43,026 nt of DNA from Candidatus Poribacteria bacterium. GTDB taxonomy: Bacteria > Poribacteria > WGA-4E > WGA-3G. Of this stretch, positions 883 through 40,896 are shown piece by piece (the stretch's first letter is position 1; the number at the start of each line of letters is the position of its first letter). A model generated the notes under the pieces. That model searched no databases, was not told the DNA's origin, and saw only the letters and a program-made list of their open reading frames with translations. Location: NCBI GenBank assembly GCA_012270795.1, contig JAAXHO010000029.1:1-43026 (forward strand). Direction: 5' to 3'. The position numbers and the translations under genes are program-made.

Positions 883-3800
883 ATGTATAGTCGACAGTTC
901 AACATTTATATCGTATTCGCTTTGTGTATGCTTACCTTATCACTAAGTTTCACCGCCTTAAACATTGCACAAGAACCCATTGACGACAAACAGATAATAG
1001 AACGTTACAAGTTGATGCTCAGGAACAAGCCGAAAGAGGGCAGCACTTTTGACCGTCTCTATCAGTTATACTTGGAGGGAGCTGGTTTAGATGCTTTGTT
1101 ATCTGACTATCAAGCGGAAGCAGAAGTAAAACCTGATGACACTAATATTCAACTCATTTTAGGACATATCTACAAACGTCTTAGAAAAGAAACGGATGCA
1201 GTCAATGCGTATAAACGTGCTGTTGAACTTGAACCGAACAGTTACTATCCGCATTTTGCTCTTGGACAAACATACACATTGCTATTGCAACATGAAAATG
1301 CCATCAACGCACTAAAACAGGCTGCAACATTAGCCAAAAACACACAAGACGCAACCCCAGAAGAATTTGCTACAATATACAAATCTCTCGGTAGGGCGTA
1401 CTTCCGCAGAGACCGGATTGATGAAGCAATCAGTGCATGGTCAAAGATCGCCGAACTTAACCCAAATGACATATTTGCACGCACTGAACTTGCAGACCTA
1501 TTCATAGAACAGGAACTCTACCAACAAGCAATAGAACAGCATGAAGCAATTATGAAACTCAAAAAAGACGATCCTTACCAAATATGCTTGAGTCACCGTG
1601 AAATTGGTAATATACATGAAGCACAAGGGGATTATCAAAAAGCTATACAAAGTTATGATGGTGCACTCACATTGACTGCCCCAGGGAACTGGTTGCGAAA
1701 AGACCTTCAACACCGAATCATCGGTATTTTCGCTGCTGATAGTGATTGGCAAGGACTAATCCGATATTACCAACAAAAACTTGAAAAAACACCAAATGAG
1801 CCGGAACTACTTGGACTACTGGCAGCAGCATATATCGAAAATCAGCAGCTGGATGAAGGAATAAAAGGTTATAGGAAAGGTTTAGAATTAGCTCCGACAG
1901 ACACGAATCTAAGACTCGATCTTATCGCAGCACTCCGTAACGATGAACAATTTGCAGAAGCCGCAGTTGAATATGAGGTCATCCGCCAACAAGACCCTGA
2001 CGATTTCGGTATCTATCGCGAACTCGGTGAATTGTACATACAGTTGGAGGATGAAGAAAAAGCAAGGTCAATATATCAACAGATGCTAGATCGTGATCCG
2101 AATAATGCAAGCACACATCTCATCCTCGCTGAAATCTATACAGGTAATGAATGGATTGAAGATGCAACTAAGGCATATCAAAAGGCAATTTCCCTTGCAC
2201 CCAACAACCTTGACTATATTGAGTATTTTGGAGAGTTCTATCTTCGTCAAGGCAGTCGCGACAAAGCAATAGAAACATGGAACTTGATGGTGGCAGACAG
2301 CAAGGGAATCGCTGAAAACTACAACCGATTGGCAAAACTACTTAGCTCAAAGAACTTCCATACAGAAGCAATCGCAGCAAGTCAAAAAGTAGTTGAACTC
2401 ATGCCAGATGTCTATGAATATCGTAAGGTGCTGGCGCAGCGACTCATGAAGCATAGAGACTTTGATGCAGCACAAATCCAATTTGCTGAGGCAGCGAAAA
2501 TCGCACCAAACACATTCTTTGCTGAGGAAATGGACGATCAGCGAATTGAACTATACCGCAGACAAGGCACCCTTGTAGAGAAAATCGAAACACTGGAAAC
2601 AGACCTTGAAAAATCGGGACAATCATATACCGAAATCTTTGCACAGCAGAAAAGGCTTGCTAAGATGTATCTGAAATTAGGCAATATCACTTATGCACTG
2701 GAAGTTACTCTAAAAGCAAAAGAACTTAAACCTGATGATGTGGTTGTCAACCGATGGCTTGCAGACGTATATATAAAACAAAACAGACTTGATGATGCAA
2801 ATGCTGTCTACATGCATCTCATTCAAGTTGACAGCGCGAATGCACGTGAATACTGGACAAATATAACCCATTTACATCTCAATGTAATGGACTTTGACGC
2901 TGCTACTGAAGCAGCAAAACAGGTAATTGCAAATAGTCCACGCAACCCAGAAGGATATCAGTTACTTGCCGAAATTTCAAAGCAACAAGCAAAATATGAT
3001 AGTGCAATTGATAACCTAAAACAAGCAATTCGATTGCGTCCAGATGCGATAAATATACGGACAGAATTAGCAGAAACTTACAAGTTTGCCGACAAACCCC
3101 GACAAGCACTTGCACAGTATTGGCGTTGCTGGGAATTGTGCGATACTGTCAACGATAAAATCAGTTTTGTCAAACCCATATCCGAAACATATTACGATTT
3201 AGGACAGAGCCGCGAATTCAAGGAAAAACTAAAACAACTCTCAAAATCCAATCCCTCTGATACTGCTCCTGTTCTGGCACTTGCAGAACTACACCGAATG
3301 GAAGGTGATCTACCCAGTGCAAGATTCCAACTTGCACGCGCGTTAGACAAACAACGCAATGATCCAAACCTCTTGTCTCAACTTGTCAGTATCAGTCTCA
3401 ATCTTGGCGATAACCAAGATGCATTATCTTATCAAGAACGACTTGTAAAAGCACATCCTGACCCAACACATCAAAGACGACTCGGTGAACTGTTGTTTGA
3501 CGCAGGACGCGAACAGGAAGCTATTCAAGCATGGACAAAACTCCTACACGCAAAAAACCAATCGCTTGAAGCTGAAGTGAAACTGGCAATCTTGCTCATT
3601 CAACACGGGCACCTAAACGAGGCTATCCTTGTCCTTGACAGAGCAGCTGAAAAAATAACGGGCAAAGATGCGCATTTGACACGCTTCCAACTCGGCACGG
3701 TCTTCGTATCAATGAATGAATTTGATCGCGCTCAATCACATTTCAAACATATTTTAAATATGCAAAAACCCCCCCGAAAGCGGAAGCTCTACTCATACAA

Positions 3801-6800
3801 AAAGACGTTTTCAAGCATATATTACGATAAATTTGACATTGCCAGGTATTTTCTATATGACATACAAGACCAATCATATCGTGGTAGAAACGTCCAGGCA
3901 TGGAAACCGAGTAACTTTGATGAAGCGCAAGCAGGCGCACTCGTACATTTGATGACTATATCTCAGTACCAAGGAAAACTAAATCAGTTCATCCAAAACT
4001 ATGAAAAACAGATAGAAAATAACCCAAAGGACATCAAAACGCTTGAAATTTTAGCACAAATTTATACTTTGACCGAGAACACTGAGAAAACAGAAAAAAC
4101 TCTTGAACAATTGATTGCAGCTTCTCCAAACGATTCAACCTATCAATCCATCCAATTTAACAGGGCATTAAGAAAGAAATCTTCTCCTGAAACTTTAGAA
4201 AATTATCTAAGCAAGTTCCCTGAAATGGATGAAGAAAAACGACTATTGTATGATTTACAATACATAAATAGACTTTATCTTGACGGTAAAAAGACTGAAG
4301 CGGAAAAACTCATACGCAAATATGAAGATATAAAGGTGATGGATCTTGACGTTATTGAAGAACTCATTGAGACATTGGCATTAATGATGAAGCCTGAAAT
4401 TGCAGAAAGAGTATTAGATAGAGTACCACTACCAACACAATCCCAGCAATCACAATATAGATATCTTTATAATGATATTACCAATACATACCTAAACCTT
4501 GAACAATATGAGAAAGCAATGGATCTCTTCTGGACTTACTGCACACGGACCCAACCTCAATTGACGAACATACGTCGTATGGCTTCACTAACAACCAGTT
4601 CCTCACCAAGTAGTTCCTCATTGCAGGTGATTTTTCCCGCACGAACTGTTTATTTTGAAGGAAGTAGGTTGGGATATTTGAAAACCTTTTCACGACAACT
4701 ATGGTTCAAAAATCAACATGAAGCTTTGTTTACAAAGTTAAAGACTACTTTTGATGCATCAGAGGGTAGAGATAGAATCTTCCCTGGATTAGCACTCAGT
4801 TACTGCTATTGGTGGAATGGTGAACGCGAAAAAGCACAAGAGATTCTTGTTTCGCTGCAGAAAGAGTTCCCGAATGACCTTTCACTCAAACTTAACACAG
4901 TCTTCATCTCTATTCAAACTGGACAAAATGCTGGAACTTTCAAATTGCTTGAGGAGCTTTCAAACACCGACCCAAGCAATCGAAACCATTATTACAACCT
5001 GATCCTAAAGTTAGCAATAAAATCCGGTAACACTGTCGTCGTGAGAGATTTAATAACAAATCTGTTGAAAACGCCAAGTAGTGCGCGTGAACTTTATTCA
5101 ATTTCCAAGCAACTGCAAAATGCTGGATACATTCAACATGCTTCTGCTATTATGAATAAAGGCATGAACTTAGCTATGGGGGTTCAAGATCCGAATTTCC
5201 TTATGGATGTAAGTGAGTTGTTAGAGGATCTTGGAAGAGGACAGCATGCCGCTCAAATCGCAGAACGCGCACTCCGTTTTGCAAATAAACGTGACCGATA
5301 CGGTAGAACTATATCTATTTGGAAGCGACAACAAGCAACCCACCTAACAAGTCAAACTAATTCCAAAAAAGAACGAGAAACTTTACTGATTGAAGCAGCA
5401 AAAAAGAACCCAAACTCTTATAGAGCTCAACTGAACTTAGCAGATTTCTATCACGGGAAAGATCAGATAGACAAGGCTTCAGCTGCATTCAAAAAAGCAC
5501 TTGAATTAAGACCGACTGATGCCTCTACTCGAAAACGTTTCGCTGATCTTCTGTTTCAAAGCGGAAGATATGATGAAGCCGTTACAGAGTATACGAGACT
5601 GCTCAAAGATAACCCAAATTCACTCGCTTACGATACTTGGGATACAATCGAATGCTTTTTTAAAGCTGAAAAAGATGACGAACTCATCTCACTCGCGAAA
5701 GGCATGATCTCTCCTTCTATCGGACGGGACTATAATAACGATTTAGCACGTGATGTCGCATACGAACTCAGAGATTTAAACAGACACACTGAAGCTATTG
5801 AGATTTATGACATACTTATTCAAGCACAACCTACGGATCCATATTATCATCGCAACAAGGCTGGGGCTTATGCACAATTAAATGAATATGATAAGGCTAT
5901 TCAAATATTACGCGATGCCTTAGATATAGATGATGAATACTCTTTGATAATTACCATAGATATGTTGATCCGTTACTACAAATCCCTTGGAAAACTCAAT
6001 GAGTTGATTACAGAGTTTGAAGATAAGCTTGCAAGAAAACCGAATGATAATAATTTGCGTTTTTTTCTTGCTAAAATGAAAATCGCTGAAAATGACCTAA
6101 AAGGTGCAGAGGAACTTACTTCCCAAATGCTAAATGAGGAGCCTATTAATACAAACTACCTTAATAGAATAGCTGAGGCATACCGTCTTACTGATGCAAG
6201 GGAAAGAGAACAACACATCCTTGAAAAAATTGTTCAAAAACGGAAAGGTTACTGGCACACCTATCGTAGACTCGGCATGATCTACGCACTAAAAGGTGAG
6301 ACGGAAAAAGCACAAGACGCATACAGAAAAATGGCAAGACTCAGGATTCGAAGTGGCAATTGGATGGATTCTATAAATGTCGCTTCAATATTTATACAAG
6401 AGCAGATGTGGGAGGAAGCTGAACCGCTATTAACTGAAATCATCAATGACCAATCAGTTCAATCACACCACAGAAGAGAAGCAGAAGAAAAGTTGGTTTC
6501 AATTAAGAAACGACAGAAGGATCTATCTAAAACGACCCAACTCAAAGATAGAATTAGGGAAATGGACATTGGGACATTGCGCACATTAGCAAAAGATTTC
6601 GTTCGACGTGGTGAGAAACAAAATGCTCTACTTATCTACACACATCTTGAAGAAGTCATACCTGAAGACTTCGAATCCCGCGCACAACTCGCTACACTTT
6701 ACACTGCACAAAACCAACATGAAAAAGCTGTCAAAACTTGGGAAACACTACTTGCAGAGGATCCAAACAACACAAAGTTTCAAGATGGACTTGTCAACAC

Positions 6801-9800
6801 ATATCAAAAAGCTGGAAAAATTGACAAAGCTCTTGAAACCACACAGCAATTCATTGATGAGGATATTGACAATCCTATCAACTATGAACGCAAAGCAAAA
6901 CTCTATGCAGTTAATGATGAGATAGATAAGGCAATTGCTTCCTACCAAACAGCAATTGAACTTGCACCGGGAAACGTAAAACGCTATAAAGATTTGGCTG
7001 CACTGTATATTCGCAAAGACGACAAAGACGCTGCCAAAATGGCATTCCAAGAAGCATTACGATTCACCGGACAAGAATATGAACGGCAGAGAATCCAAAA
7101 AGAAATTTTGAAACTATCTGGATCTAAAGAAAAGATTGAGGAAACAGTGCAAAAAGCTGCGGATGCAGGTACAATAACTTTTGACATGCAAAAAGAACGT
7201 GCTAAAACGTTCAAAGATAACGGTAAACTTACAGAAGCTGGCACCGCTTATGAAAAAGCTCTTGAGATGACTTCCGATAGTTATGAGCGTAGAAGAATAT
7301 ATGAGCAATTGCTGGAGATTTACCCTAAAATCGGGAATGACGAAGCAGCCTTAAAAGCACATGACGAACTCGCTTTTTCTGTATATATTGCAAATTCTGC
7401 TCCGTTGGCACGCGATAGATTGATCAGGGCATACAAAAATATCAATAAGCTTGATGTCCTAACCTCTATCTTCAAAACAAGGCTTGACAACGATCCGGAT
7501 AGTATAGTCAATTTAGAAATGCTCGCTACGATATACAACAGCACAGAGCAATTTGGGAAAGCGGCTGAAACTTATAAAGCACTCAGCGAACTACAACCCA
7601 GCGGCGTGATGTATTATTACAAAGCTGCAGCAGCATATAATAGAGATGGACAAACTGAGTTAGCAAGAGAGATGTTAAAACAAGGTGAAAGTGATCTTTT
7701 TGTCAGTAATAATAATGATAGTAGATATTTTCTGGAGGACCTCGGCAATATCTGTTATGATGGAAAACTTTATGACGCGGCTATTAAATTAGCTGATGCT
7801 GCAATCGCTGAAAGTGCTAATTCCCGCGTACACGGTTTTGGAATAACGGGTGAATATGCTTATAAACTACTTGCCAAAAGTTACTATGCCGCAAAAAGGT
7901 ACGAAGAAGCTGTCTATACCTATCAGCAAGTCCTTAACATGGCTGATTATTCTTGGGATAGAGATGATGCAAGAAGGAAAATAGAAAGCGCATCAAGACT
8001 TGGAAACCTTTATGAAAAACAGATACCAAAACTTTTGAAGAAGGTCCAGGAATATCCCAATGATCCAGATGCACGTCTTAACCTTGCACAAACATGCGAG
8101 AAAGCCAATAAACATAACGATGCTATTACACATTATGCAGCACTTAGTCAACTCCAACCCGATAATGTTCAATGGCACAAAAAAATTGGATCGCTGTATC
8201 TGCAAATGCCACCTGAAAAACGTGAGACAGGTGAAGTCAGAAAGAGTAACGCACTTACTCTGAAAGGAAATGGTAGTTTCGTTGAAGTGCCTCCCAGTGA
8301 GTCTTTAGACAGCATAACGGATCAGGTGACGGTGTCGGCATGGATATACCCAACCAGTTTTCCAAACAACTATGTCCGTATCGTTTTTAAAAGTGATGAG
8401 AAGAGACAAAATTATCGACAACGTAGTTATATCCTTGTCATCAGGCAAGATGGGAAACTCAAAATTAATGCATCACCTAAAGCAGAAGGATATGCATCCC
8501 TTTATTCTGCACCGAATCTCATAAAACTAAATACATGGACTCACATCGCAGGTGTCATCAATGCAAAGCAGGATTACATGAAGGTATTTGTTAATGGGCT
8601 TGAAGTCGGTAATAGACATTTTAATGGACAAGATAGTTTAATGCAAACTCAACTGCCACTTCGTATAGGAGCAACCCATGTGACTGCCGAAGTAGAAACG
8701 TCCTTATTTATCGGACAGATTGATGAAGTGCGTATCTGGAATATCGCACGAATACAGCAAGAAATCCTGACTGATATGAACCACGAACTGAACGGCAATG
8801 AACAAGGATTAGTGGCATATTGGAAATTTGACGGTGAAACCAATGGAATAACACTTGATTCTACTGACAACAAGAATCATGGAACACTAATCGGTGATGC
8901 CAGTATTACCCCTTATGTGAGAGATGTCTTTGAGAGTACCAAGGCTTCTCATTTTACTAAAGCTGCCGTTGCGTTCAATAAAGCTATTGAACTCGATCCA
9001 ACCTCCTATGAATTATACAGGTCATTAGTAGAATCCTATACTAAACTTGGACAGATTTCTAATGCAGAGAAAGTCTATATTCGTGCCTTGGATGCGCCCC
9101 TGACACAGGATAACCACAATGATGCAATTAAAGCCTTATGGGCATTTTACTCAAATACGGAAAATCAGAACAATGGTATTGCCAAACTTGAAGAACTTCA
9201 GCAGAAAATAAAAAACAATGCTGCCCTATACGAACTATTAGGCGATGCTTATGAAAAAGCAGGTGAACCAGAGAAAGCCAAAAACGCTTACACACAGTGG
9301 GTAGAGTTACGACAACGACAAGTAAATCAGCAAGGTTCTGCAAGTACCTATAGAGATTTTGCTCGTGAAATCCTTGATAAAGGTATTTTACCTGAAGCAG
9401 CAATTAAAAATGCAAAACTTGCAGCACAACTTGACAACTCCTCAGAAAATGTATTAACTTTGGGTTATGTCTACCTCGTTATCGGACAGAAGCCAGAAGC
9501 ACTTGAGCAGTTCAAAAAAGGACTCTTGAACTTGTCATCAGGAACTTTTCAACGCAAATTCTTCGGTTGGCTTTCTGATTACGGCAACAATACAGACGAT
9601 AAAGAGGCTTATGTTGCCTTATTAACCGAGCTTGTTAACACTATCTCCAATAATGTTATTGCCCAACTCAATCTCAATCTACTGCTGGCAGAATACTGCT
9701 TAAAAAATGACATGCAGGAGAAGTATAAAGAGACTATTCGAAATACTGGATTTATTGTTGAAGACTTCTGGTTACATCTCGGTCCTTTTGATAATAACAA

Positions 9801-10251
9801 TACAAACGGATTGAATATAGTTTTTATCCAAGAAGAAGCAACAGAGATGGATCTAAATGCAAAGTATGATGGGAAAAATGGTGAAATAAGTTGGAAGCAA
9901 CTTAACGACGACGATTTAAACGCTTTTATCAATCTCGGTGAAGGTTTAGATAACTGTGTCGGTTATGCCTTTACTACCATCACTTCACCTGATGACAGGG
10001 AAGTACAATTCCGTTTTGATAGTGATGATCAAGGAAAAGTCTGGTTGAATGGCAAAGAGGTTTTTGTGAATACGCGAACTTTTGCTGCATCTATAGACAG
10101 ACTGGTTAATCCTGTAAATCTCAAAAAAGGCAGAAACAGCGTCCTTGTCAAAGTAAACGAAAATACGGGTGGATGGGGATTCTACCTACGTGTTACTGAC
10201 CAAGACGGCAATCCTTTTGATGATTTAGTTTTCTCACCTCCAGAGTATTAA
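883..10251 (+). CDS. Giant exported TPR protein with embedded LamG domain
   Basis: This 3122-residue protein starts with a signal-peptide-like N-terminus (charged start, hydrophobic residues about 8-28). Most of its length is degenerate tetratricopeptide repeats, seen as recurring A..Y..A(I/L)..P patterns (for example AVNAYKRAVELEPNS). About residues 2460-2665 form a LamG/concanavalin-like domain (VTVSAWIYPTSFP, then IDEVRIWN and LVAYWKFD). TPRs resume after it. The last 170 residues (2955-3122) look like a carbohydrate-binding-type beta domain with FDSDDQGKVWLNGKEV and WGFYLRVTD. Known TPRs are protein-binding scaffolds and LamG modules bind glycans or proteins, so an exported or surface interaction role is inferred. 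AGAGGA lies eight bases before the ATG. No enzyme motif was seen. It is monocistronic: the downstream neighbour coaE is separated by an inverted repeat. Confidence 0.9.
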   Translation: MYSRQFNIYIVFALCMLTLSLSFTALNIAQEPIDDKQIIERYKLMLRNKPKEGSTFDRLYQLYLEGAGLDALLSDYQAEAEVKPDDTNIQLILGHIYKRLRKETDAVNAYKRAVELEPNSYYPHFALGQTYTLLLQHENAINALKQAATLAKNTQDATPEEFATIYKSLGRAYFRRDRIDEAISAWSKIAELNPNDIFARTELADLFIEQELYQQAIEQHEAIMKLKKDDPYQICLSHREIGNIHEAQGDYQKAIQSYDGALTLTAPGNWLRKDLQHRIIGIFAADSDWQGLIRYYQQKLEKTPNEPELLGLLAAAYIENQQLDEGIKGYRKGLELAPTDTNLRLDLIAALRNDEQFAEAAVEYEVIRQQDPDDFGIYRELGELYIQLEDEEKARSIYQQMLDRDPNNASTHLILAEIYTGNEWIEDATKAYQKAISLAPNNLDYIEYFGEFYLRQGSRDKAIETWNLMVADSKGIAENYNRLAKLLSSKNFHTEAIAASQKVVELMPDVYEYRKVLAQRLMKHRDFDAAQIQFAEAAKIAPNTFFAEEMDDQRIELYRRQGTLVEKIETLETDLEKSGQSYTEIFAQQKRLAKMYLKLGNITYALEVTLKAKELKPDDVVVNRWLADVYIKQNRLDDANAVYMHLIQVDSANAREYWTNITHLHLNVMDFDAATEAAKQVIANSPRNPEGYQLLAEISKQQAKYDSAIDNLKQAIRLRPDAINIRTELAETYKFADKPRQALAQYWRCWELCDTVNDKISFVKPISETYYDLGQSREFKEKLKQLSKSNPSDTAPVLALAELHRMEGDLPSARFQLARALDKQRNDPNLLSQLVSISLNLGDNQDALSYQERLVKAHPDPTHQRRLGELLFDAGREQEAIQAWTKLLHAKNQSLEAEVKLAILLIQHGHLNEAILVLDRAAEKITGKDAHLTRFQLGTVFVSMNEFDRAQSHFKHILNMQKPPRKRKLYSYKKTFSSIYYDKFDIARYFLYDIQDQSYRGRNVQAWKPSNFDEAQAGALVHLMTISQYQGKLNQFIQNYEKQIENNPKDIKTLEILAQIYTLTENTEKTEKTLEQLIAASPNDSTYQSIQFNRALRKKSSPETLENYLSKFPEMDEEKRLLYDLQYINRLYLDGKKTEAEKLIRKYEDIKVMDLDVIEELIETLALMMKPEIAERVLDRVPLPTQSQQSQYRYLYNDITNTYLNLEQYEKAMDLFWTYCTRTQPQLTNIRRMASLTTSSSPSSSSLQVIFPARTVYFEGSRLGYLKTFSRQLWFKNQHEALFTKLKTTFDASEGRDRIFPGLALSYCYWWNGEREKAQEILVSLQKEFPNDLSLKLNTVFISIQTGQNAGTFKLLEELSNTDPSNRNHYYNLILKLAIKSGNTVVVRDLITNLLKTPSSARELYSISKQLQNAGYIQHASAIMNKGMNLAMGVQDPNFLMDVSELLEDLGRGQHAAQIAERALRFANKRDRYGRTISIWKRQQATHLTSQTNSKKERETLLIEAAKKNPNSYRAQLNLADFYHGKDQIDKASAAFKKALELRPTDASTRKRFADLLFQSGRYDEAVTEYTRLLKDNPNSLAYDTWDTIECFFKAEKDDELISLAKGMISPSIGRDYNNDLARDVAYELRDLNRHTEAIEIYDILIQAQPTDPYYHRNKAGAYAQLNEYDKAIQILRDALDIDDEYSLIITIDMLIRYYKSLGKLNELITEFEDKLARKPNDNNLRFFLAKMKIAENDLKGAEELTSQMLNEEPINTNYLNRIAEAYRLTDAREREQHILEKIVQKRKGYWHTYRRLGMIYALKGETEKAQDAYRKMARLRIRSGNWMDSINVASIFIQEQMWEEAEPLLTEIINDQSVQSHHRREAEEKLVSIKKRQKDLSKTTQLKDRIREMDIGTLRTLAKDFVRRGEKQNALLIYTHLEEVIPEDFESRAQLATLYTAQNQHEKAVKTWETLLAEDPNNTKFQDGLVNTYQKAGKIDKALETTQQFIDEDIDNPINYERKAKLYAVNDEIDKAIASYQTAIELAPGNVKRYKDLAALYIRKDDKDAAKMAFQEALRFTGQEYERQRIQKEILKLSGSKEKIEETVQKAADAGTITFDMQKERAKTFKDNGKLTEAGTAYEKALEMTSDSYERRRIYEQLLEIYPKIGNDEAALKAHDELAFSVYIANSAPLARDRLIRAYKNINKLDVLTSIFKTRLDNDPDSIVNLEMLATIYNSTEQFGKAAETYKALSELQPSGVMYYYKAAAAYNRDGQTELAREMLKQGESDLFVSNNNDSRYFLEDLGNICYDGKLYDAAIKLADAAIAESANSRVHGFGITGEYAYKLLAKSYYAAKRYEEAVYTYQQVLNMADYSWDRDDARRKIESASRLGNLYEKQIPKLLKKVQEYPNDPDARLNLAQTCEKANKHNDAITHYAALSQLQPDNVQWHKKIGSLYLQMPPEKRETGEVRKSNALTLKGNGSFVEVPPSESLDSITDQVTVSAWIYPTSFPNNYVRIVFKSDEKRQNYRQRSYILVIRQDGKLKINASPKAEGYASLYSAPNLIKLNTWTHIAGVINAKQDYMKVFVNGLEVGNRHFNGQDSLMQTQLPLRIGATHVTAEVETSLFIGQIDEVRIWNIARIQQEILTDMNHELNGNEQGLVAYWKFDGETNGITLDSTDNKNHGTLIGDASITPYVRDVFESTKASHFTKAAVAFNKAIELDPTSYELYRSLVESYTKLGQISNAEKVYIRALDAPLTQDNHNDAIKALWAFYSNTENQNNGIAKLEELQQKIKNNAALYELLGDAYEKAGEPEKAKNAYTQWVELRQRQVNQQGSASTYRDFAREILDKGILPEAAIKNAKLAAQLDNSSENVLTLGYVYLVIGQKPEALEQFKKGLLNLSSGTFQRKFFGWLSDYGNNTDDKEAYVALLTELVNTISNNVIAQLNLNLLLAEYCLKNDMQEKYKETIRNTGFIVEDFWLHLGPFDNNNTNGLNIVFIQEEATEMDLNAKYDGKNGEISWKQLNDDDLNAFINLGEGLDNCVGYAFTTITSPDDREVQFRFDSDDQGKVWLNGKEVFVNTRTFAASIDRLVNPVNLKKGRNSVLVKVNENTGGWGFYLRVTDQDGNPFDDLVFSPPEY

Positions 10252-23304: not shown

Positions 23305-23883
23305 TTAAATCTTACCATTTTCAGTAAAAACATGTTGCACTGGAATATCCCACGGTTGAGGGTATAAGTTTTCTACTATTTGTATCTGAAATGCAAGACC
23401 GATAGAAACAGCATTGGGACAGGTAGGTAAGAAACGGTCATAATAGCCTTTACCGTATCCGAGACGATTACCAACTAAATCAAAAGCAACTCCTGGAACA
23501 AGGATAAGTTGGATCTGATCGTTTGGAATGACAGCACAATTTTCATTGGGTTCCATCATACCATAACGGTGTATAACCAAATCATCACCCAAATTCTGAA
23601 TACGTCTTGGAATAAGCTTGCTACTATCTACATCAACTACCGGAGCGATGACCTGCTTTCCCTGTTTGAGAAGAGCACTACACAGTTCCCATGTTTCTAC
23701 TTCGCTCTTCATACTTAAATAAACCATTACAACATTAAACGAACAACTTTCTTTTTGCTCAATCCATTTCAACACATTATGTATAATTTGTTTGCTGTGT
23801 AATGTACGCTCAGCATGAGAAAGGTTGGCACGTTGTTGCAGCATTTCTCTGCGAATGGATTCCCGTTCATGTGTGTCATCCAT
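23305..23883 (-). CDS. fthC: 5-formyltetrahydrofolate cyclo-ligase
   Basis: It converts 5-formyl-THF to 5,10-methenyl-THF with ATP, returning a storage/inhibitory folate to the one-carbon pool. The C-terminal signature VPGVAFDLVGNRLGYGKGYYDRFL region is intact (Gly-rich ATP site GYGKGYYDR), with YLSMKSEVET upstream. The 192-residue length is normal. It starts seven bases after the response-regulator stop codon, so it is the last gene of the eutN-kinase-regulator run. Confidence 0.9.
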   Translation of the reverse strand: MDDTHERESIRREMLQQRANLSHAERTLHSKQIIHNVLKWIEQKESCSFNVVMVYLSMKSEVETWELCSALLKQGKQVIAPVVDVDSSKLIPRRIQNLGDDLVIHRYGMMEPNENCAVIPNDQIQLILVPGVAFDLVGNRLGYGKGYYDRFLPTCPNAVSIGLAFQIQIVENLYPQPWDIPVQHVFTENGKI

Positions 23884-23889
23884 TTTTCT

Positions 23890-25236
23890 TTAGTCTTCCC
23901 AGTCAATATGGTTTATATGCTTTGCAAGTGCATCCCGAAAAGTAGAGGGTTTCATAGATAGCAACTTGGCAGCCTGAGTCTTATTCCCTTGCGTTTTTCT
24001 CATCGCCCAAGCAATTAGCTCCCGTTCAGTAGATTTGATAATTTCATGGTAAGAAGTTAAACTCGGTGTGCTGTCAAATTTTTGATAGGTCGGAAGTTTT
24101 AATTCTATCGGTATGTCGTCTGCAGTAATGTCTGTTCCACTTTTGACAGCGACAAGCCGCTCAATGATATTTTCAAGTTCACTGACGTTACCCGGCCAAG
24201 GATATTCTGTTAGTATATTGACTGCATCCGGTTTCATTCTGATGGCTTGATGTGGTGAGAAAATGTCTAAAAAATGTGATATAAGCATCGGGATATCACC
24301 CTTGCGTTCACGCAACGGTGGCAGGAAAAGAGGAACAACATTCAACTGATAATATAGTTCCTCAAGAAAATTTCCATGTTTTGTTTTCTCTTTTAGACAT
24401 TCCCTGCTTGTTGAAATGATACGCATATCAACTTCTTTAGGTTCATTTACAGAAGTATCAATCAATTTGTTTTCTTTCAACACGGATAAAAACTTGGCTT
24501 GTAAGTCTATCGGCACTATATCCACATTTGCAATAAACAAGGTGCCATGTTTTGCTAATTGTATTTTTCCTTGTTGGTTTTGACTACCAAACAGCTCAGC
24601 TTCAATTGCATCCGTGGAGAGCCCAATACAATTGAGGCTGACATAGGGTTGATGCTGACGCGCGCTCTGGAGGTGAATAGTTTTTGCTAACAAAGATTTA
24701 CCTGTTCCTTCCTCACCGAATATCATAATGTTACTGTCTGATGACGCAATCTTAGGTAAGACCTTGAGTATTTCTTGTATCTGTTGGCTTTTCCCAATCA
24801 ATGTGTGGTAAAGTGAGGGTTCTTGGGTTGTAGCAGATGTCTTGAGAGAAGAATCCTTACTATCAATAGGTGTTTTCCCCCTCAAGGTTTTGAGTTTATC
24901 TAACATGATGATTAACTCATCGCTTGAAAAAGGCTTTTTGATGTAGTTGTATGCACCAAATCTCAGTGCTTCTACGGCGGTTTCTACACTTGCGTAAGCA
25001 GTCATGACAATTACGGTGATGTGTGGGTGCTCCTTTTTGACCTTTTTTAGGAAATCAATCCCGTGCATCTGTGGCATCCGTAAATCAGTTACCAAAACAT
25101 CAAACTTTTCCTGCTGCAACAGTTGCAGCCCAATCATGGGTGACTCAACAGCAATAGCCTCGTAATTGCATTCGCGTAAATCATCACGGAGCGTCATACG
25201 TTTTAGTTTTTCATCATCAACAACAAGGATTTTCAT
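23890..25236 (-). CDS. NtrC-like response regulator with degenerate AAA+ domain
   Basis: 448 residues: receiver domain (ILVVDDEK, phospho-acceptor in VTDLRMP, Lys in IKKPF), AAA+ domain, and C-terminal Fis-type HTH (GNKTQAAKLLSMKPSTFRDAL). Walker A GEEGTGKS and the arginine-finger stretch LPPLRERKGDI are kept. The GAFTGA loop is deleted: ELFGSQNQQGKIQLA replaces the usual ELFG...GAFTGA...G.FE.A. The Walker B acidic pair is lost (TLFIAN instead of TLFLDE). It should therefore neither contact sigma54 nor hydrolyse ATP normally, and probably acts as a phosphorylation-controlled DNA binder. The start at 25236 lies six bases after AGGAGG, which overlaps the kinase stop. An ATG at 25266 would add ten residues with no site. 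Confidence 0.9.
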   Translation of the reverse strand: MKILVVDDEKLKRMTLRDDLRECNYEAIAVESPMIGLQLLQQEKFDVLVTDLRMPQMHGIDFLKKVKKEHPHITVIVMTAYASVETAVEALRFGAYNYIKKPFSSDELIIMLDKLKTLRGKTPIDSKDSSLKTSATTQEPSLYHTLIGKSQQIQEILKVLPKIASSDSNIMIFGEEGTGKSLLAKTIHLQSARQHQPYVSLNCIGLSTDAIEAELFGSQNQQGKIQLAKHGTLFIANVDIVPIDLQAKFLSVLKENKLIDTSVNEPKEVDMRIISTSRECLKEKTKHGNFLEELYYQLNVVPLFLPPLRERKGDIPMLISHFLDIFSPHQAIRMKPDAVNILTEYPWPGNVSELENIIERLVAVKSGTDITADDIPIELKLPTYQKFDSTPSLTSYHEIIKSTERELIAWAMRKTQGNKTQAAKLLSMKPSTFRDALAKHINHIDWED

Positions 25237-25246
25237 TTTGATCCTC

Positions 25247-27010
25247 CTAAGTCTGTTTTCCTGCAATCGGCAATTTTACAGTAAATGTTGAACCCAAACC
25301 TTCCTCACTTTCTACCTCAATGACACCATGATGTTGTCTAATAATCCTGTCGGAAACTGAAAGTCCGAGACCAGTTCCCTTTTCTGTTATCTGTGTCGTA
25401 TAAAATGGGTCAAATATTCTATCTTGAGATGTTTCTGAAATACCTATGCCATTATCAATGACTTTAACATAGACACTGGGTTGTGCTAAGAAAGGATCTA
25501 ATATCAATTCACCCGTTCTATACTGCAGTCTTCCGCCTTCTGGCATCGCTGTTATTGCATTCAGAGATAGGTTAAGAACAACTTGTTCTAATAGATGTTT
25601 ATCACCATGAATGAGGGAAATCCTATCTGGGAATTCTTTCTCAATCTGGATACCTTTTTCAGATGCACCAAATTCAATTAAACCTATTGTCTCATTTACT
25701 ATATCATTGAGGTTAACAGAAGTTAGTGTCAACTCATGCGGTCTTGAGAAGTCAAGCAATTTCCCAATTGTCGCTTCAATTCTGCGAATCGCTTCCTCCA
25801 TTAAACCGAGATATTCTTGTGTTTGTTCTATGTTTTTTGGGTTGCGTTGTATGCGAAGTATGCAGTTCAAGAGTCCGTCAAGAGGGTTATTGATTTCATG
25901 TGCTACCCCTGCGGCTAATTCACCGATAGCAGCCATCTTTTCCGAAAAAATAAGTTGCTGTTCCATCCTTTTTCTATCGGTTACATCACGAGATACAAGC
26001 ACTGTACCAAGGTAATTATCTTCTCCGTCACGCACAGCAGCATAAGTATTCTCGTAGTGCTTTTCACCTATCTGTTGGTCTTTTCTTTCAATAGCTTCGT
26101 TACCTTCGGTGAATTCTCGTGATATTTGTGCCAGCGTTTCAGTGCTCCCAAAATGCAGGTTCGGTGTCATATTATGATCAGACTGTTCTTCTTGTATCTG
26201 TAGTGCTGCTTTGTTGAATAGCGTTGATTCGTTAGTAGAGTCAACAAATACAACACCTTCCTGCATGCATTCAATAATAGATTTCAGTTTGTTTCGTTCA
26301 AAAACTAATTCTTTGCGCGTTTCAACAAGTTCATAAACTTTTTCTTCCAAATGTTCTTTTAGTTCGCGGGTTTCTGCTTCACGTTCTCTTGCTGTCTGTG
26401 TGATTGTCGTGGCAAGATATACAGAAAAAAAGAGAGTACTTGTAAAAACAAATAGCACTCCAAGAATATAGTGGGGATCACGCCATAGGTTCTCATCAGG
26501 CAGGAAATTATTGAGATGGTTGTGCGGGAGTATTTCAAAATACTCAAGGAATATAAGTGAACTCAACAGCAACGTGTTCAGTGTGGCTAAGATATAACTC
26601 ACACGTTTGGATAAGATAATGCTTGCGATGACAAGGTGAAATACAAAATAAAAAATAAACGGGTTTTCAACACCACCGCCGAAGTGGATGAGTGCGATTA
26701 ACGACAGCAAATCAAGGATAATATGAATACAGGCTTGCCGTTTGATATACTCTAACCGTTGCTGCTCTGGTGCCTTTTGGTACATCTGAGGTTCAAAATT
26801 ATAAAGCACCATCAGACCCGCAATGATATACAACGGTACAGGCTGCGCTATCATGTCCCACGCTAAATTAGCAACCGTTACAGTGAAGAATACACCTACG
26901 ATTGCAATCCAACGGAGCCGCACTAACCATCCGATCTGTTTGATTAACTCCAGTTTTAACGGCAGTTCATCTTCGACTGCTTTTTCCTGGAACAATTGTG
27001 TCTGTTCCAT
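25247..27010 (-). CDS. Membrane sensor histidine kinase with PAS domain
   Basis: 587 residues. The first 205 hold about six hydrophobic segments with short loops, suggesting sensing in or near the membrane. A coiled coil (about 205-245) leads to a PAS domain (about 245-355, ending VLVSRDVTDRKRMEQQL). The H-box ELAAGVAHEINNPLDG carries the phospho-His. The ATP lid shows the N-box NLSLNAITAMPEGG, DNGIGI, FDPFYTT and GTGLGLSV, so the catalytic core is complete. Its stop codon overlaps the ribosome binding site of the regulator, indicating translational coupling. It begins 14 bases after the EutN-like gene. Confidence 0.93.
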   Translation of the reverse strand: MEQTQLFQEKAVEDELPLKLELIKQIGWLVRLRWIAIVGVFFTVTVANLAWDMIAQPVPLYIIAGLMVLYNFEPQMYQKAPEQQRLEYIKRQACIHIILDLLSLIALIHFGGGVENPFIFYFVFHLVIASIILSKRVSYILATLNTLLLSSLIFLEYFEILPHNHLNNFLPDENLWRDPHYILGVLFVFTSTLFFSVYLATTITQTAREREAETRELKEHLEEKVYELVETRKELVFERNKLKSIIECMQEGVVFVDSTNESTLFNKAALQIQEEQSDHNMTPNLHFGSTETLAQISREFTEGNEAIERKDQQIGEKHYENTYAAVRDGEDNYLGTVLVSRDVTDRKRMEQQLIFSEKMAAIGELAAGVAHEINNPLDGLLNCILRIQRNPKNIEQTQEYLGLMEEAIRRIEATIGKLLDFSRPHELTLTSVNLNDIVNETIGLIEFGASEKGIQIEKEFPDRISLIHGDKHLLEQVVLNLSLNAITAMPEGGRLQYRTGELILDPFLAQPSVYVKVIDNGIGISETSQDRIFDPFYTTQITEKGTGLGLSVSDRIIRQHHGVIEVESEEGLGSTFTVKLPIAGKQT

Positions 27011-27024
27011 ATCAGTCGGTCTCT

Positions 27025-27312
27025 CTATTTCATGTAACGGACTTCACCGTCTACTTCAATGGTATCAACGATCGCCATGACAACACCATCAACAGGCTTG
27101 TTGCTGGTCACACTTGTCTGGCGCGCGGAGCTGCCTGAAGCCACCAGCACAATTTCACCGATACCAGCACCTACAGCATCTACGGCGACTATATACTTCC
27201 GTTCTAATTCACCTTCTAAATTCACATCTTGGACAATCAGCAACTTACTCCCTACAAGTTTCTCATCCTTTTGCGTTGCTACGACTGTCCCTGTAACCTT
27301 TCCAAGTGTCAT
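27025..27312 (-). CDS. EutN/CcmL bacterial microcompartment vertex protein
   Basis: 95 residues over the whole pentamer-forming family: GKVTGTVVATQKDEKLVG at the start, KLLIVQDV, VAVDAVGAGIGEIVLVASGS, SSARQT and a C-terminal VDGVVMAIVDTIEVDG. BMC-P proteins cap the vertices of the icosahedral protein shell. No BMC-H/BMC-T hexamer genes or encapsulated enzymes are in the window, so this is a satellite copy. AAGGA lies six bases before the ATG. It heads the run eutN-kinase-regulator-fthC, which is not a known BMC operon layout to me. Confidence 0.92.
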   Translation of the reverse strand: MTLGKVTGTVVATQKDEKLVGSKLLIVQDVNLEGELERKYIVAVDAVGAGIGEIVLVASGSSARQTSVTSNKPVDGVVMAIVDTIEVDGEVRYMK

Positions 27313-27388: not shown

Positions 27389-27417
27389 TTGACAATTTCC
27401 TATCACCATGTTAAACT
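27389..27417 (+). promoter_or_regulatory. Promoter of the glycine oxidase-like gene
   Basis: TTGACA (27389-27394), a 17-base spacer and TAAACT (27412-27417). The -35 overlaps an AAATTG-A-CAATTT palindrome (27386-27398) that could be an operator. It lies in the 147-base divergent gap shared with the EutN-like gene. Confidence 0.6.
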
Positions 27418-27459
27418 ATTTATGATGACTAAGTCAAGTCAAAAAATTGGAGAATATTA

Positions 27460-36570: not shown

Positions 36571-38796
36571 TTATTGTGGAACCTTCCATAGTAGAATTGT
36601 ACCGTCATAACTACCACTGGCAAGTGTTTTTCCGTCTGGACTGAATGCAATTGAACTAATCCCACCTGTATGTCCGGAGAGTGTTTTGAGACGTTCTCCA
36701 GAGTTGGGATTCCATATTATTGCAGTTACATCCACACTACTTGCTGTAGCAATAGTCTGTCCATTATGGGAAAAACGCATATCACTGATAGTCCCGCCAC
36801 CACAATAAGGATGGCTCTCATGCCCAGCTAAACTTCTTATATGTTGTCTTTTACTGATGTCAAATAAATCCACTACACTTCCGTGTCCATCTACAATTGC
36901 CATGATCTTTCCATCTGGTGAAGAACTCACAAAACTTGTAGCCCCTGAGTAGTTTAGATCTCTGATGTGCTGTCCAGTCATCCCATCCCATAAAAATGTT
37001 CCATCTTCATCACTTTCTTCATAAATACTTGTGACAATTGTATTTGAATTCTTTGAAAAGTAAGCTCCATCAATACTACCATAAATTCCAGTGATGGTTC
37101 TGATAAGTTGACCGGTGTTGGGATCCCAAAGTTGTGTACTTTCCGAACTTCTACTTACGATGATTGAACCATCAGCGGAATACTTAATTTGATAGAGTTT
37201 ACCTTTTATATCAGAAATAGTATTGAGGAGTTTTCCTGTGTTAGCATCCCATATCAAAATTGTATCATCATCACCTCTACAAGCAATTGTTTTTCCATTA
37301 GGCGAAATGTGCACTTGCTCAATGTAATTATCACGTTCTGACATTCTACTGATGAGTTCGCCAGTGTTCACATGCCACAAACACAGATGACTCCTAATGC
37401 TCCGGGTTATGAAAGTGTTCCCATTTGGAGAAAAGTAAATGGTGCTAACGTCGCCTTTTATTCCATTGAGTTTATGTTGTTCATTGAGATTATATTGTTC
37501 ATGCAACTTTCCAGTACTGATATCGTACAAACGTAATGTTTTGTCTGAACTCCAACTTGCTACTGTATTTCCGGCTGGTGTAATAATTATATCGTATATG
37601 CTTTCGGTATATCCATCAAGTGTTGTGAGGAGTTTGCCTGAAATAGCATTCCATAGATAGACTGTGTTATCCCTGCCTTTACTGAGTAAAGTCATTCCAT
37701 CTGGAGAAAAAACCATACTGTTAATTGCATCTTTATTCCCAGAAAAGGGTATCAGATGCATCCCCTGTTTCGCTGCCCATAGATGTATCGTTCCATCGTA
37801 TCCACTTGTAGCGATAAGCCTGCTATTTGATGAAAAACTTAAGGTGCTTATCTTACTCCCGTCAATTCCGATAAGACCCCTGATATATTCTCCCGTGTTA
37901 ACATCCCATAGGTCAACCTTACCATCAGATTTATGTATGGTCGCAAGGGTATTCCCGTCGGGAGAAAAGAACATACTGGCATAACCCTTATCATCTGATT
38001 TTTGTGTAGACCTTTTTAGTTGATTCCACCCCTCTGAGTTGATATTTCTATAGAACACACCTCCAATGCCTGGATACCAACTACTCAAGACTGAAAGGGT
38101 CCTTCCGTTGGCAGATAATTGGACATCTTCTATTTTGCTATCATGTAGAGATTCAGCTGGGTTGTTAATGGTTTTAAGTTGCTGTCCTGTTGCAACATCC
38201 CACAACTTTATTTTCCCATACTGCCAAGTTAAAAGTGTCTTGTTATCTGGCGAAAAACGGACGTTATAGAAACGGTTGGTAGGTTCGGATATTGTGTTTA
38301 TGTGTTTTCCTGTTTTGACATCATACAATCGAAGCGTTTTACGAAAATATGTGAATTTTTCTGCACATTGTACCGTAACCATCTTTCCATTTGGTGAAAA
38401 GAGAGGATCATAAAGACCAAATTCACTATCACTGAGTGTATGAATATGATTACCTGTATTCGTATTCCACAATAGAACGCTGCCCTCTGGACTTTCTGTG
38501 GCGAAAGTTTTTTCATCAGGTGAGAATCGGATCCTGTAAACACCTTTGGTGTGGTCGGTAAGTTGGTATAGTTCTTTGCCAGTGATTGAATCGTAGATCC
38601 AAACCCCAACTGAAGTTGCGACTGCAAACCGCGTGCCATCCGGAAAATAAGCGATTTCTCCCAACGTGCCTTTCCCAATGCGGAGTTTTGCACCTTCTGG
38701 CAAATTTGATTTTGCGGTACCTTGAGCCGAGGTCATTTGCAGAGAAAACAAAAGTAGTAAGGTTATGGTGATGATGAGTTGATGCAATTTTTTCAT
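36571..38796 (-). CDS. Exported WD40 repeat protein, copy 1
   Basis: 741 residues. A signal peptide (LIITITLLLLFSLQMTSAQ) is followed by about 16 WD40 blades, each ending in variants of LWD..TG.., enough for two seven- or eight-bladed propellers. Blades carry SPDGKT-type turns. WD40 propellers bind proteins, so an extracytoplasmic interaction role is inferred. The N-terminal 70 residues (LPEGAKLRIGKG...GVWIYDS) and the last blade are almost identical to copy 2. AAGGAG precedes the ATG. It is followed by the GNAT gene after 16 bases. Confidence 0.9.
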   Translation of the reverse strand: MKKLHQLIITITLLLLFSLQMTSAQGTAKSNLPEGAKLRIGKGTLGEIAYFPDGTRFAVATSVGVWIYDSITGKELYQLTDHTKGVYRIRFSPDEKTFATESPEGSVLLWNTNTGNHIHTLSDSEFGLYDPLFSPNGKMVTVQCAEKFTYFRKTLRLYDVKTGKHINTISEPTNRFYNVRFSPDNKTLLTWQYGKIKLWDVATGQQLKTINNPAESLHDSKIEDVQLSANGRTLSVLSSWYPGIGGVFYRNINSEGWNQLKRSTQKSDDKGYASMFFSPDGNTLATIHKSDGKVDLWDVNTGEYIRGLIGIDGSKISTLSFSSNSRLIATSGYDGTIHLWAAKQGMHLIPFSGNKDAINSMVFSPDGMTLLSKGRDNTVYLWNAISGKLLTTLDGYTESIYDIIITPAGNTVASWSSDKTLRLYDISTGKLHEQYNLNEQHKLNGIKGDVSTIYFSPNGNTFITRSIRSHLCLWHVNTGELISRMSERDNYIEQVHISPNGKTIACRGDDDTILIWDANTGKLLNTISDIKGKLYQIKYSADGSIIVSRSSESTQLWDPNTGQLIRTITGIYGSIDGAYFSKNSNTIVTSIYEESDEDGTFLWDGMTGQHIRDLNYSGATSFVSSSPDGKIMAIVDGHGSVVDLFDISKRQHIRSLAGHESHPYCGGGTISDMRFSHNGQTIATASSVDVTAIIWNPNSGERLKTLSGHTGGISSIAFSPDGKTLASGSYDGTILLWKVPQ

Positions 38797-38859: not shown

Positions 38860-40896
38860 TTACGGAACGTCCCATAGTAAAATTGTACCGTCGCCACTAC
38901 CACTGGCGAGTGTTTTTCCGTCTGGACTGAATGCAATTGAACTAATCCCACCTGTATGTCCGGCGAGTGTTTTGAGATTCTGACCAGATGTTGTAGACCA
39001 TAACCTAACGGTTTTGTCTAAACTTCCGGTAGCAATAGTATTTCCATCTGGAGAATAACTTGCGTGGCTTTCAGCCCCCGAATATCCAGAGAGTTTTTTG
39101 ATATGTTGACCTGTTTTTCCATCCCACAGATACACGCCATCGTCCTTATATTCGTCATATATACTGGTAATAATAGTATTTATTTTAGGGGAAAAGTATG
39201 CTCCATCAATAGACCCCGTAGTTCCAGTAAGTGTATTTAGGCGTTGTCCTGTGTTGGCATCCCATATCTGTACTGTATTGCCTGAACTCTGGACAACGAG
39301 TTTAGTGCCATCGCTTGAATAATCTACTCCGAAGAGTTTCCCCTTAATCCCAGTCAGTGTACTTAGCAGTTTTCCTGTGTTTCCATTCCATAATCGAGCA
39401 CTATTATCCGAACTTCTACTTACAATCGTGTTACCATCAGGTGAATAGTTTAACTGGGCAATATCGTGTCTTTGCTTTGAAAACGTGTTGAGGAGTTCTC
39501 CTGACTTTACATCCCACAAAAATGCCATACCCCGTGTACATATTACAGCGAAAGTATTTCCGTTAGGTGAAAAATGAAATGAGTTAACCTCCCCTTTTAA
39601 ACCATTGAGTTTATAATGTTTCAGTAACTTTCCTGTATTTGCATCCCACAACCGAATAGTTTTGTCATTATCCCAGATTGCAAGAGTTTTTCCGTCTAGT
39701 AAATAGGTAACTTTGTTCACGCTCTCCGTGTATCCAGACAGTGTTTTCAGTAACTGTCCTGTGAACGTATCCCATAGACGCACAGTCTTGTCAGAACCCG
39801 TACTAAGTAGGTTTGTTCCATCTGGCGAAAAGGAAACGGTATCAACATTTCCCACATGTCCAGAAAGACTTATCAGCTCTTGTCCCGTGGTAGTAGACCA
39901 GAGAAGTATCGTGCCATCACTCCCAGCCGCAGCGATAATTTTTCCGTTTGGTGAAAAGCGGACACAAGACGCTTCACCTGCCGTATGCCCAATAAAACTT
40001 TTCAGGTATTGTGTTGTGTTTACATCCCATAGATGCACCGAACCGTCAGATGAACCTGTGGTAGCAATAGTCTTTCCATCAGGTGAAAAACATACACTGG
40101 AAAAATCATTGGTATCTTCTTGAGTGATTGAATTTAGATGTTCTCCCGTGTCAACCTCCCATAAACGCACTGTCTGATCTAACCCACTCGTTATGATAAT
40201 TTTCCCATCAGGAGAAAAATTGACACTGGTAATACTACCCTCATGAGCCATGAAGGTGTTTAGGTGTTTTCCCGTACTCACATCCCATAGCTCCAAGTTT
40301 CTGCTATTATATTCCCAAATTGTAAGTGTCTTGCCATCAGGTGAAAAGCGTCTGTTATAGAAACCAGCGTTAGGTTTGGCGAGTGTTTTTATGTGTTGAC
40401 CTGTTCTGACATCCCACAAATTTATTGTCTTGTTGGATATTTCAGATAGGGTTCCACTTGATGTAGCAATAGTATTACCATCGGGAGAAAAGATCGGATT
40501 GTAATGCTCCTTCTCCTCATCTGCAATAGACCTCAAAAGCTGACCTGTGGAAGTTTTCCAAATTAGTACAGTTCCATCCGGACCTTCTGTCACGGTTAAA
40601 TTCCCATCGGATGAAATGGATACGTTTTCTATACCATTTACACGGTTAGCAAGATCAGTGAGTTGGTATAATTCATTTCCAGAGATCGAGTCGTATATCC
40701 AAACCCCAACTGAAGTTGCGACTGCAAACCGCGTGCCATCAGGAAAATAAGCGATTTCTCCCAATATCCCTTTACCAATGCGGAGTTTGGCACCTTCTGG
40801 CAAATTCGTATTTGTGCTTTCTTGTGCGAAGACATTCGCCAAGAATATCGTTAACAGTAGGCAAAGGTATAAGATATGTCGTTGTCTTATTTGCAT
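38860..40896 (-). CDS. Exported WD40 repeat protein, copy 2
   Basis: 678 residues with a signal peptide (ILYLCLLLTIFLANVFAQ) and about 15 WD40 blades. The region after the signal peptide (NLPEGAKLRIGKGILGEIAYF) and the final blade (HTGGISSIAFSPDGKTLASG) are nearly the same as copy 1 at DNA level, while the middle is diverged. This suggests duplication with later exchange at the ends. It lies 12 bases after the third WD40 gene and is probably co-transcribed. The signal peptide differs from copies 1 and 3. Confidence 0.9.
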   Translation of the reverse strand: MQIRQRHILYLCLLLTIFLANVFAQESTNTNLPEGAKLRIGKGILGEIAYFPDGTRFAVATSVGVWIYDSISGNELYQLTDLANRVNGIENVSISSDGNLTVTEGPDGTVLIWKTSTGQLLRSIADEEKEHYNPIFSPDGNTIATSSGTLSEISNKTINLWDVRTGQHIKTLAKPNAGFYNRRFSPDGKTLTIWEYNSRNLELWDVSTGKHLNTFMAHEGSITSVNFSPDGKIIITSGLDQTVRLWEVDTGEHLNSITQEDTNDFSSVCFSPDGKTIATTGSSDGSVHLWDVNTTQYLKSFIGHTAGEASCVRFSPNGKIIAAAGSDGTILLWSTTTGQELISLSGHVGNVDTVSFSPDGTNLLSTGSDKTVRLWDTFTGQLLKTLSGYTESVNKVTYLLDGKTLAIWDNDKTIRLWDANTGKLLKHYKLNGLKGEVNSFHFSPNGNTFAVICTRGMAFLWDVKSGELLNTFSKQRHDIAQLNYSPDGNTIVSRSSDNSARLWNGNTGKLLSTLTGIKGKLFGVDYSSDGTKLVVQSSGNTVQIWDANTGQRLNTLTGTTGSIDGAYFSPKINTIITSIYDEYKDDGVYLWDGKTGQHIKKLSGYSGAESHASYSPDGNTIATGSLDKTVRLWSTTSGQNLKTLAGHTGGISSIAFSPDGKTLASGSGDGTILLWDVP

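Follow-up and report, generated by a model that had tools for sequence, protein, structure and literature searches.

The NtrC-type response regulator encoded at positions 23890 to 25236 of the window (the whole stretch of DNA analysed, 43,026 nucleotides) keeps, among the residues for ATP hydrolysis, only its Walker A motif and the switch Asn202. With moderate confidence, and on the evidence of sequence, I read it as an ATPase-dead pseudo-AAA+ transcription factor that would be sigma54-independent, controlled by phosphorylation, probably nucleotide-binding, and active on housekeeping promoters. The absence of hydrolysis, the independence from sigma54 and the control by phosphorylation I infer from its residues and surroundings; the binding of a nucleotide is more speculative.

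The regulator and its motifs

The DNA comes from a sponge-associated Candidatus Poribacteria genome, and the nearest contigs in the databases are Candidatus Poribacteria MAGs. The open reading frame is correctly delimited, from the ATG at 25236 to the stop at 23890 on the minus strand, and the matches to Response_reg, Sigma54_activat, AAA_lid_14 and HTH_8, all above the Pfam cut-offs and in one protein, place it in the NtrC family. Its features are as follows.

23890..25236 (-), gene of the NtrC-type response regulator with degenerate AAA+ domain, 448 aa; 30 orthologues
24901..25230 (-), receiver domain PF00072, aa 3-112; Pfam, pocket residues invariant
25084..25086 (-), codon of the predicted phospho-acceptor Asp51; invariant
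24313..24801 (-), AAA+ core PF00158, about aa 146-308; Pfam, E 1.9e-38, 132 bits
24694..24717 (-), Walker A GEEGTGKS, retained; 8/8 columns invariant in genus g1 and g4
24553..24597 (-), shortened L1 loop ELFGSQNQQGKIQLA without GAFTGA, 9-aa gap versus homologues; alignment
24520..24543 (-), degenerate Walker B TLFIANVD; A236 at 24529-24531, N237 at 24526-24528
24400..24420 (-), degenerate sensor I IISTSRE, Asn replaced by R278; alignment
24337..24375 (-), degenerate arginine-finger motif GNFLEELYYQLNV, Arg replaced by L291 and Arg by Q297; alignment
24175..24201 (-), degenerate sensor II PWPGNVSEL, Arg replaced by S352; alignment
24097..24312 (-), AAA+ lid PF25601; Pfam
23920..24033 (-), Fis-type HTH PF02954; Pfam

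The motifs were read against outgroup homologues and the solved bEBPs NtrC1, NtrC4, LuxO and FleQ. The original prediction had claimed that GAFTGA is cleanly deleted and that AN stands in place of the Walker B DE pair, and both claims are borne out: relative to both reference sets the GAFTGA region is a clean in-frame gap of nine residues, with 15 residues in L1 versus 24 in the homologues, and the DE or DD of Walker B aligns with A236 N237. Among the parts it had listed as intact, the receiver (D7, D8, D51, T79 and K101 of its pocket are unchanged, n = 29 orthologues), the Walker A GEEGTGKS and the HTH are so, but the arginine-finger region is not, with L291 and Q297 in place of the arginines; four losses had escaped notice, namely both arginine fingers, the sensor I Asn and the sensor II Arg. 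The RxDxxxR motif of bEBPs reads LEELYYQ, with Glu where most sister species keep the Asp, and AATN of sensor I has become STSR and GNxREL of sensor II GNVSEL, which leaves neither sensor in the bEBP form. Following the Walker A Lys, where bEBPs typically have Glu, the regulator has Ser, the generic P-loop form.

The same pattern of motif losses is found in all 17 orthologues of genus g1 (17/17), so the losses are due neither to chance nor to sequence error. A GAFTGA motif was sought in all 30 orthologues of the order and found in none (0/30), these being the related homologues in which an intact motif would be expected if the loss were local; with the loss common to 30 independent genomes, sequence error or local decay is ruled out.

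That the regulator still activates sigma54, through non-canonical residues, would fit its PF00158 score of 132 bits and the presence of rpoN, but is very improbable: the loop that would contact sigma54 is missing, other residues stand at Walker B, at both arginine fingers and in both sensors, and single changes of this kind all but abolish the ATPase of PspF, in which D107A, E108A, R162A and R168A each bring Vmax from 39.5 down to 0.15-0.23 per min (PMC3419264). In PspF, K42A impairs ATP binding, and R162 and R168 variants are constitutive hexamers (PMC3419264). As the four PspF-equivalent acidic and arginine positions are changed here and the Lys is retained, hydrolysis is very unlikely, binding appears possible, and oligomerisation may be nucleotide-independent.

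An AlphaFold2 model of moderate quality (mean pLDDT 73.9, pTM 0.48) predicts that the bEBP fold is kept, its top structural matches being NtrC4, NtrX, PspF, NtrC1, FlrC and FleQ (Z 25-27), with VpsR at Z 23.5. FleQ also ranks first in the PDB by AAA+ sequence, and both likenesses would suit a VpsR- or FleQ-like protein with cyclic di-GMP as ligand of its AAA+ domain. However, the residues for receiver phosphorylation and a kinase are present, and a search of the genome (G000, 95% complete) turned up no GGDEF protein, so that control by cyclic di-GMP was rejected as having next to no probability.

Kinase, operon and promoter

The regulator is the third gene of a locus on the minus strand, whose features are these.

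27400..27437 (-), conserved upstream element with the sigma70-like hexamer TTGACT; positionally conserved
27025..27312 (-), microcompartment vertex protein of EutN/CcmL type, opening the locus; E 3.6e-30, synteny
25247..27010 (-), cognate histidine kinase with PilS-like membrane domain, PAS, HisKA and HATPase_c; Pfam, catalytic boxes intact
23305..23883 (-), 5-formyltetrahydrofolate (FTHF) cyclo-ligase, closing the conserved locus; Pfam, synteny

Most loci across the order share the arrangement eutN, kinase, regulator, FTHF cyclo-ligase, and Kamke et al. 2014 (PMC3909097) had already remarked on two-component genes next to the shell genes of poribacterial microcompartments. The kinase carries a PilS-type six-helix membrane domain (PF25323, E 7.8e-9), and its H, N, G1, F and G2 boxes are conserved at every poribacterial locus examined, in agreement with the earlier view that it looks fully active. 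The sequence features of a phosphorylatable receiver and an adjacent cognate kinase are thus both present.

EutN/CcmL-type proteins like that at 27025-27312 occur in 84 of the 85 genomes of the phylum, and this eutN is retained even where the kinase-regulator pair has gone; the two BMC hexamer genes of the genome are on contigs other than that of eutN. In genome G000, a second EutN-type gene (L004 region, G000:C253:9514-10813) lies downstream of another NtrC-type regulator with a GAFTDA loop, some 500 bases from its AAA+ match; by this arrangement, another EutN gene stands beside a regulator of the NtrC family.

If the regulator is indeed an ATPase-dead, phosphorylation-controlled transcription factor, the adjacent membrane kinase would phosphorylate Asp51, and phosphorylation would shift the oligomeric state through the receiver and the AAA+ scaffold, which in turn would control binding of the Fis-type HTH to DNA at promoters that depend on the housekeeping sigma factor and not on sigma54. 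The intact P-loop would probably hold a nucleotide as a structural or allosteric ligand, without hydrolysis. That the regulator controls its own eutN operon is speculative. The core of the original prediction, a sigma54-independent, phosphorylation-controlled protein that may bind and not hydrolyse ATP, is supported as far as the residues go, with the exception of its intact arginine fingers.

The region upstream of the operon contains a conserved TTGACT or TTGAAA/TATAAT-type element, a putative sigma70-like promoter, the sigma70 score of which is only slightly above that of shuffled sequences in most single genomes; no sigma54 site above chance was found upstream of the operon. The element is suggestive only as a hint at regulation of a sigma70 promoter. 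Its copy at 27400..27437 is the sole match in the genome, and because it occurs once it yields no list of other targets.

The genome has rpoN and eight enhancer-binding proteins that match PF00158 strongly or have a GAF-type loop. The presence of rpoN rules out that the motif losses followed a loss of sigma54 from the genome, and as rpoN and the eight proteins coexist with the regulator, the loss of its motor is no by-product of losing sigma54. Inactive AAA+ subunits can tune or poison the hexamers of other hetero-oligomers, and the regulator might in the same way mix with a canonical enhancer-binding protein, such proteins being encoded in the same genome, its own fold being still bEBP-like. 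I consider this improbable, as no partner is genetically linked, the conservation of receiver, kinase and HTH fits a stand-alone regulator, and the loss of the arginines that act in trans takes away the usual function of such a partner.

Elsewhere in the window, the sigma54 -24/-12 consensus is matched exactly (TGGCACGCGGTTTGCA) at 38623-38638 and 40723-40738, in either case about 160 bases into a WD40-repeat gene. The two genes are neighbours and the offset is the same; probably the matches are shared coding sequence of paralogues. The open reading frame at 883-10251 encodes 3122 residues, rich in TPR, with a laminin-G/concanavalin-like domain, and is of the kind of eukaryote-like repeat proteins reported for sponge symbionts.

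Distribution, order of loss and selection

An orthologue with 51-96% identity to the regulator is present in 30 of the 73 genomes of the order, distributed unevenly over its groups (g1 17/18, g4 1/1, f2 2/2, f4 9/9, g2 1/38, g3 0/2, f3 0/3). The closest relatives outside the Poribacteria, with 33-42% identity, are from Deltaproteobacteria, KSB1, Neomarinimicrobiota, Ignavibacteria or Bacteroidetes, and Planctomycetota. All 12 outgroup homologues from other phyla have a GAF-type L1 loop, and their Walker B (LDD or LDE), sensor II and arginine fingers are preserved; the gene immediately upstream encodes a kinase. Their neighbourhoods were also considered as a guide to the ancestral function, but the neighbours differ and show no consistent theme.

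In a tree that included these 12 homologues and left out the motif columns, the poribacterial regulators form one clade (support 100/100). On this tree, the deep branching of which has only moderate support inside the poribacterial clade, a single change accounts for the loss of GAFTGA and two for that of the Walker B Asp, and the second Walker B residue, the second arginine finger and sensor II were each lost once. The Walker B Asp is replaced by K or Q in genus g8, and by A in g11, f2 and f1, whereas L037 and L039 retain LDD and most other catalytic residues; L1 has 24 residues in the outgroups, 20 in g7, g11 and f2, 15 in f1, and 13 in g8 and g10. The end point of the stepwise loss is the regulator's own family, f1. 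It is conceivable, and I propose it tentatively, that this lineage turned a sigma54 AAA+ motor into a pseudo-ATPase switch, in which a non-hydrolysed nucleotide and phosphorylation would control DNA binding, and that sister lineages keep the intermediates of a series that began with the loss of GAFTGA, went on with two independent losses of Walker B and ended with those of the arginine fingers and sensors.

The kinases of L056, L057, L058 and L062 lack the PAS domain, in frame (residues 214-343 of the window kinase), with identical boundaries in lineages separated by the regulator tree; this may reflect recombination, or the sensor domain may have been lost repeatedly.

The main rival of the favoured reading is a slide to dispensability, in which a regulator nearly superfluous after the loss of GAFTGA lets its catalytic residues drift towards gene loss. 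Besides the stepwise order of the losses, the fate of the pair in other genera is in its favour. In the g2 and g3 genomes examined (L136-L140), eutN is joined straight to the FTHF ligase gene, both of these kept and the kinase-regulator pair cleanly gone, from which it follows that the system is dispensable in the sister genus. G021, the only g2 genome still with a regulator (L135, G021:C37), has no kinase, and its regulator, on a long branch, has lost the Walker A Lys (GSGT), apparently the last step before gene loss. However, the open reading frame is intact in 17 of the 18 genomes of genus g1, the boxes of the kinase and the receiver pocket are intact, and for each of the domains dN/dS between close relatives is low (AAA+ core about 0.05-0.17; receiver 0-0.07; HTH mostly <=0.1). 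The AAA+ core is under purifying selection. In addition, the lost catalytic residues are not drifting but have been replaced by fixed, conserved ones (AN, LYYQL, SEL), and these together with the low dN/dS argue that the stripped form is functional in g1. I therefore regard slow decay as unlikely.

By the dN/dS values, the kinase boxes and the residues retained or replaced, the input and output halves of the system have been preserved, and the motor half survives as a fold but not as an ATPase. The P-loop columns 174-181 are all invariant (8/8, versus 62/165 core columns; g1 and g4, hypergeometric p = 3e-4), a conservation that could be purely structural.

Comparison with known systems

GAFTGA-less relatives of NtrC are known to act on sigma70 promoters (PMC3162934; PMC10274813), and the TyrR and HupR that had been cited for this regulator are valid precedents for working without sigma54 (PMC3162934). 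A bEBP stripped of both Walker B and arginine fingers was not found described earlier in the open-access literature, to which the search was confined, subscription papers being outside its scope. By its sequence the regulator appears to be an extreme form of the GAFTGA-less NtrC proteins, such as RcNtrC, HupR, NtrX and VpsR, and such proteins carry a practical warning, in that a PF00158 match alone mislabels them as sigma54 activators.

The outgroup homologues, in Deltaproteobacteria, KSB1 and others, are the nearest proteins outside the Poribacteria and share the kinase directly upstream, but differ in all the catalytic motifs that they have kept. The PilS-type membrane domain of the kinase recalls PilS/PilR, whereas the regulator lacks the GAFTGA and the ATPase residues for the sigma54-dependent activation by PilR. 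Brucella NtrX is a full-length structural match (Z 26.6) with a shortened L1, likened here by fold and loop length alone. Vibrio cholerae VpsR is likewise a GAFTGA-less bEBP with, by loop length, a shortened L1; however, it responds to the cyclic di-GMP for which the poribacterial genome yielded no GGDEF protein, while the regulator has a kinase and a phosphorylation site.

Further parallels are NtrC-type response regulators without GAFTGA. Like RcNtrC and HupR (PMC3162934; PMC10274813), the regulator has lost this motif, but in contrast to them it has also lost Walker B, the arginine fingers and both sensors, and its use of sigma70 promoters is a prediction. Caulobacter NtrC has an eight-residue L1 deletion that includes GAFTGA, an intact receiver and a paired kinase; it depends in vivo on residues of Walker A and of Walker B alike, whereas the poribacterial regulator has no Walker B (PMC10274813). 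The need for the ATPase in GAFTGA-less NtrC proteins thus differs from case to case, as for Rhodobacter capsulatus NtrC, also without GAFTGA and acting on sigma70 promoters, ATP binding is needed and hydrolysis is not, according to the work as cited in PMC10274813. The poribacterial lineage appears to offer a natural answer, in that the hydrolysis residues were shed in steps after contact with sigma54 was lost, Walker B on two independent occasions, whereas strong selection continued to act on phosphorylation input and DNA binding; it provides a ready series, from nearly intact to fully stripped, for examining the role of an AAA+ domain without hydrolysis.
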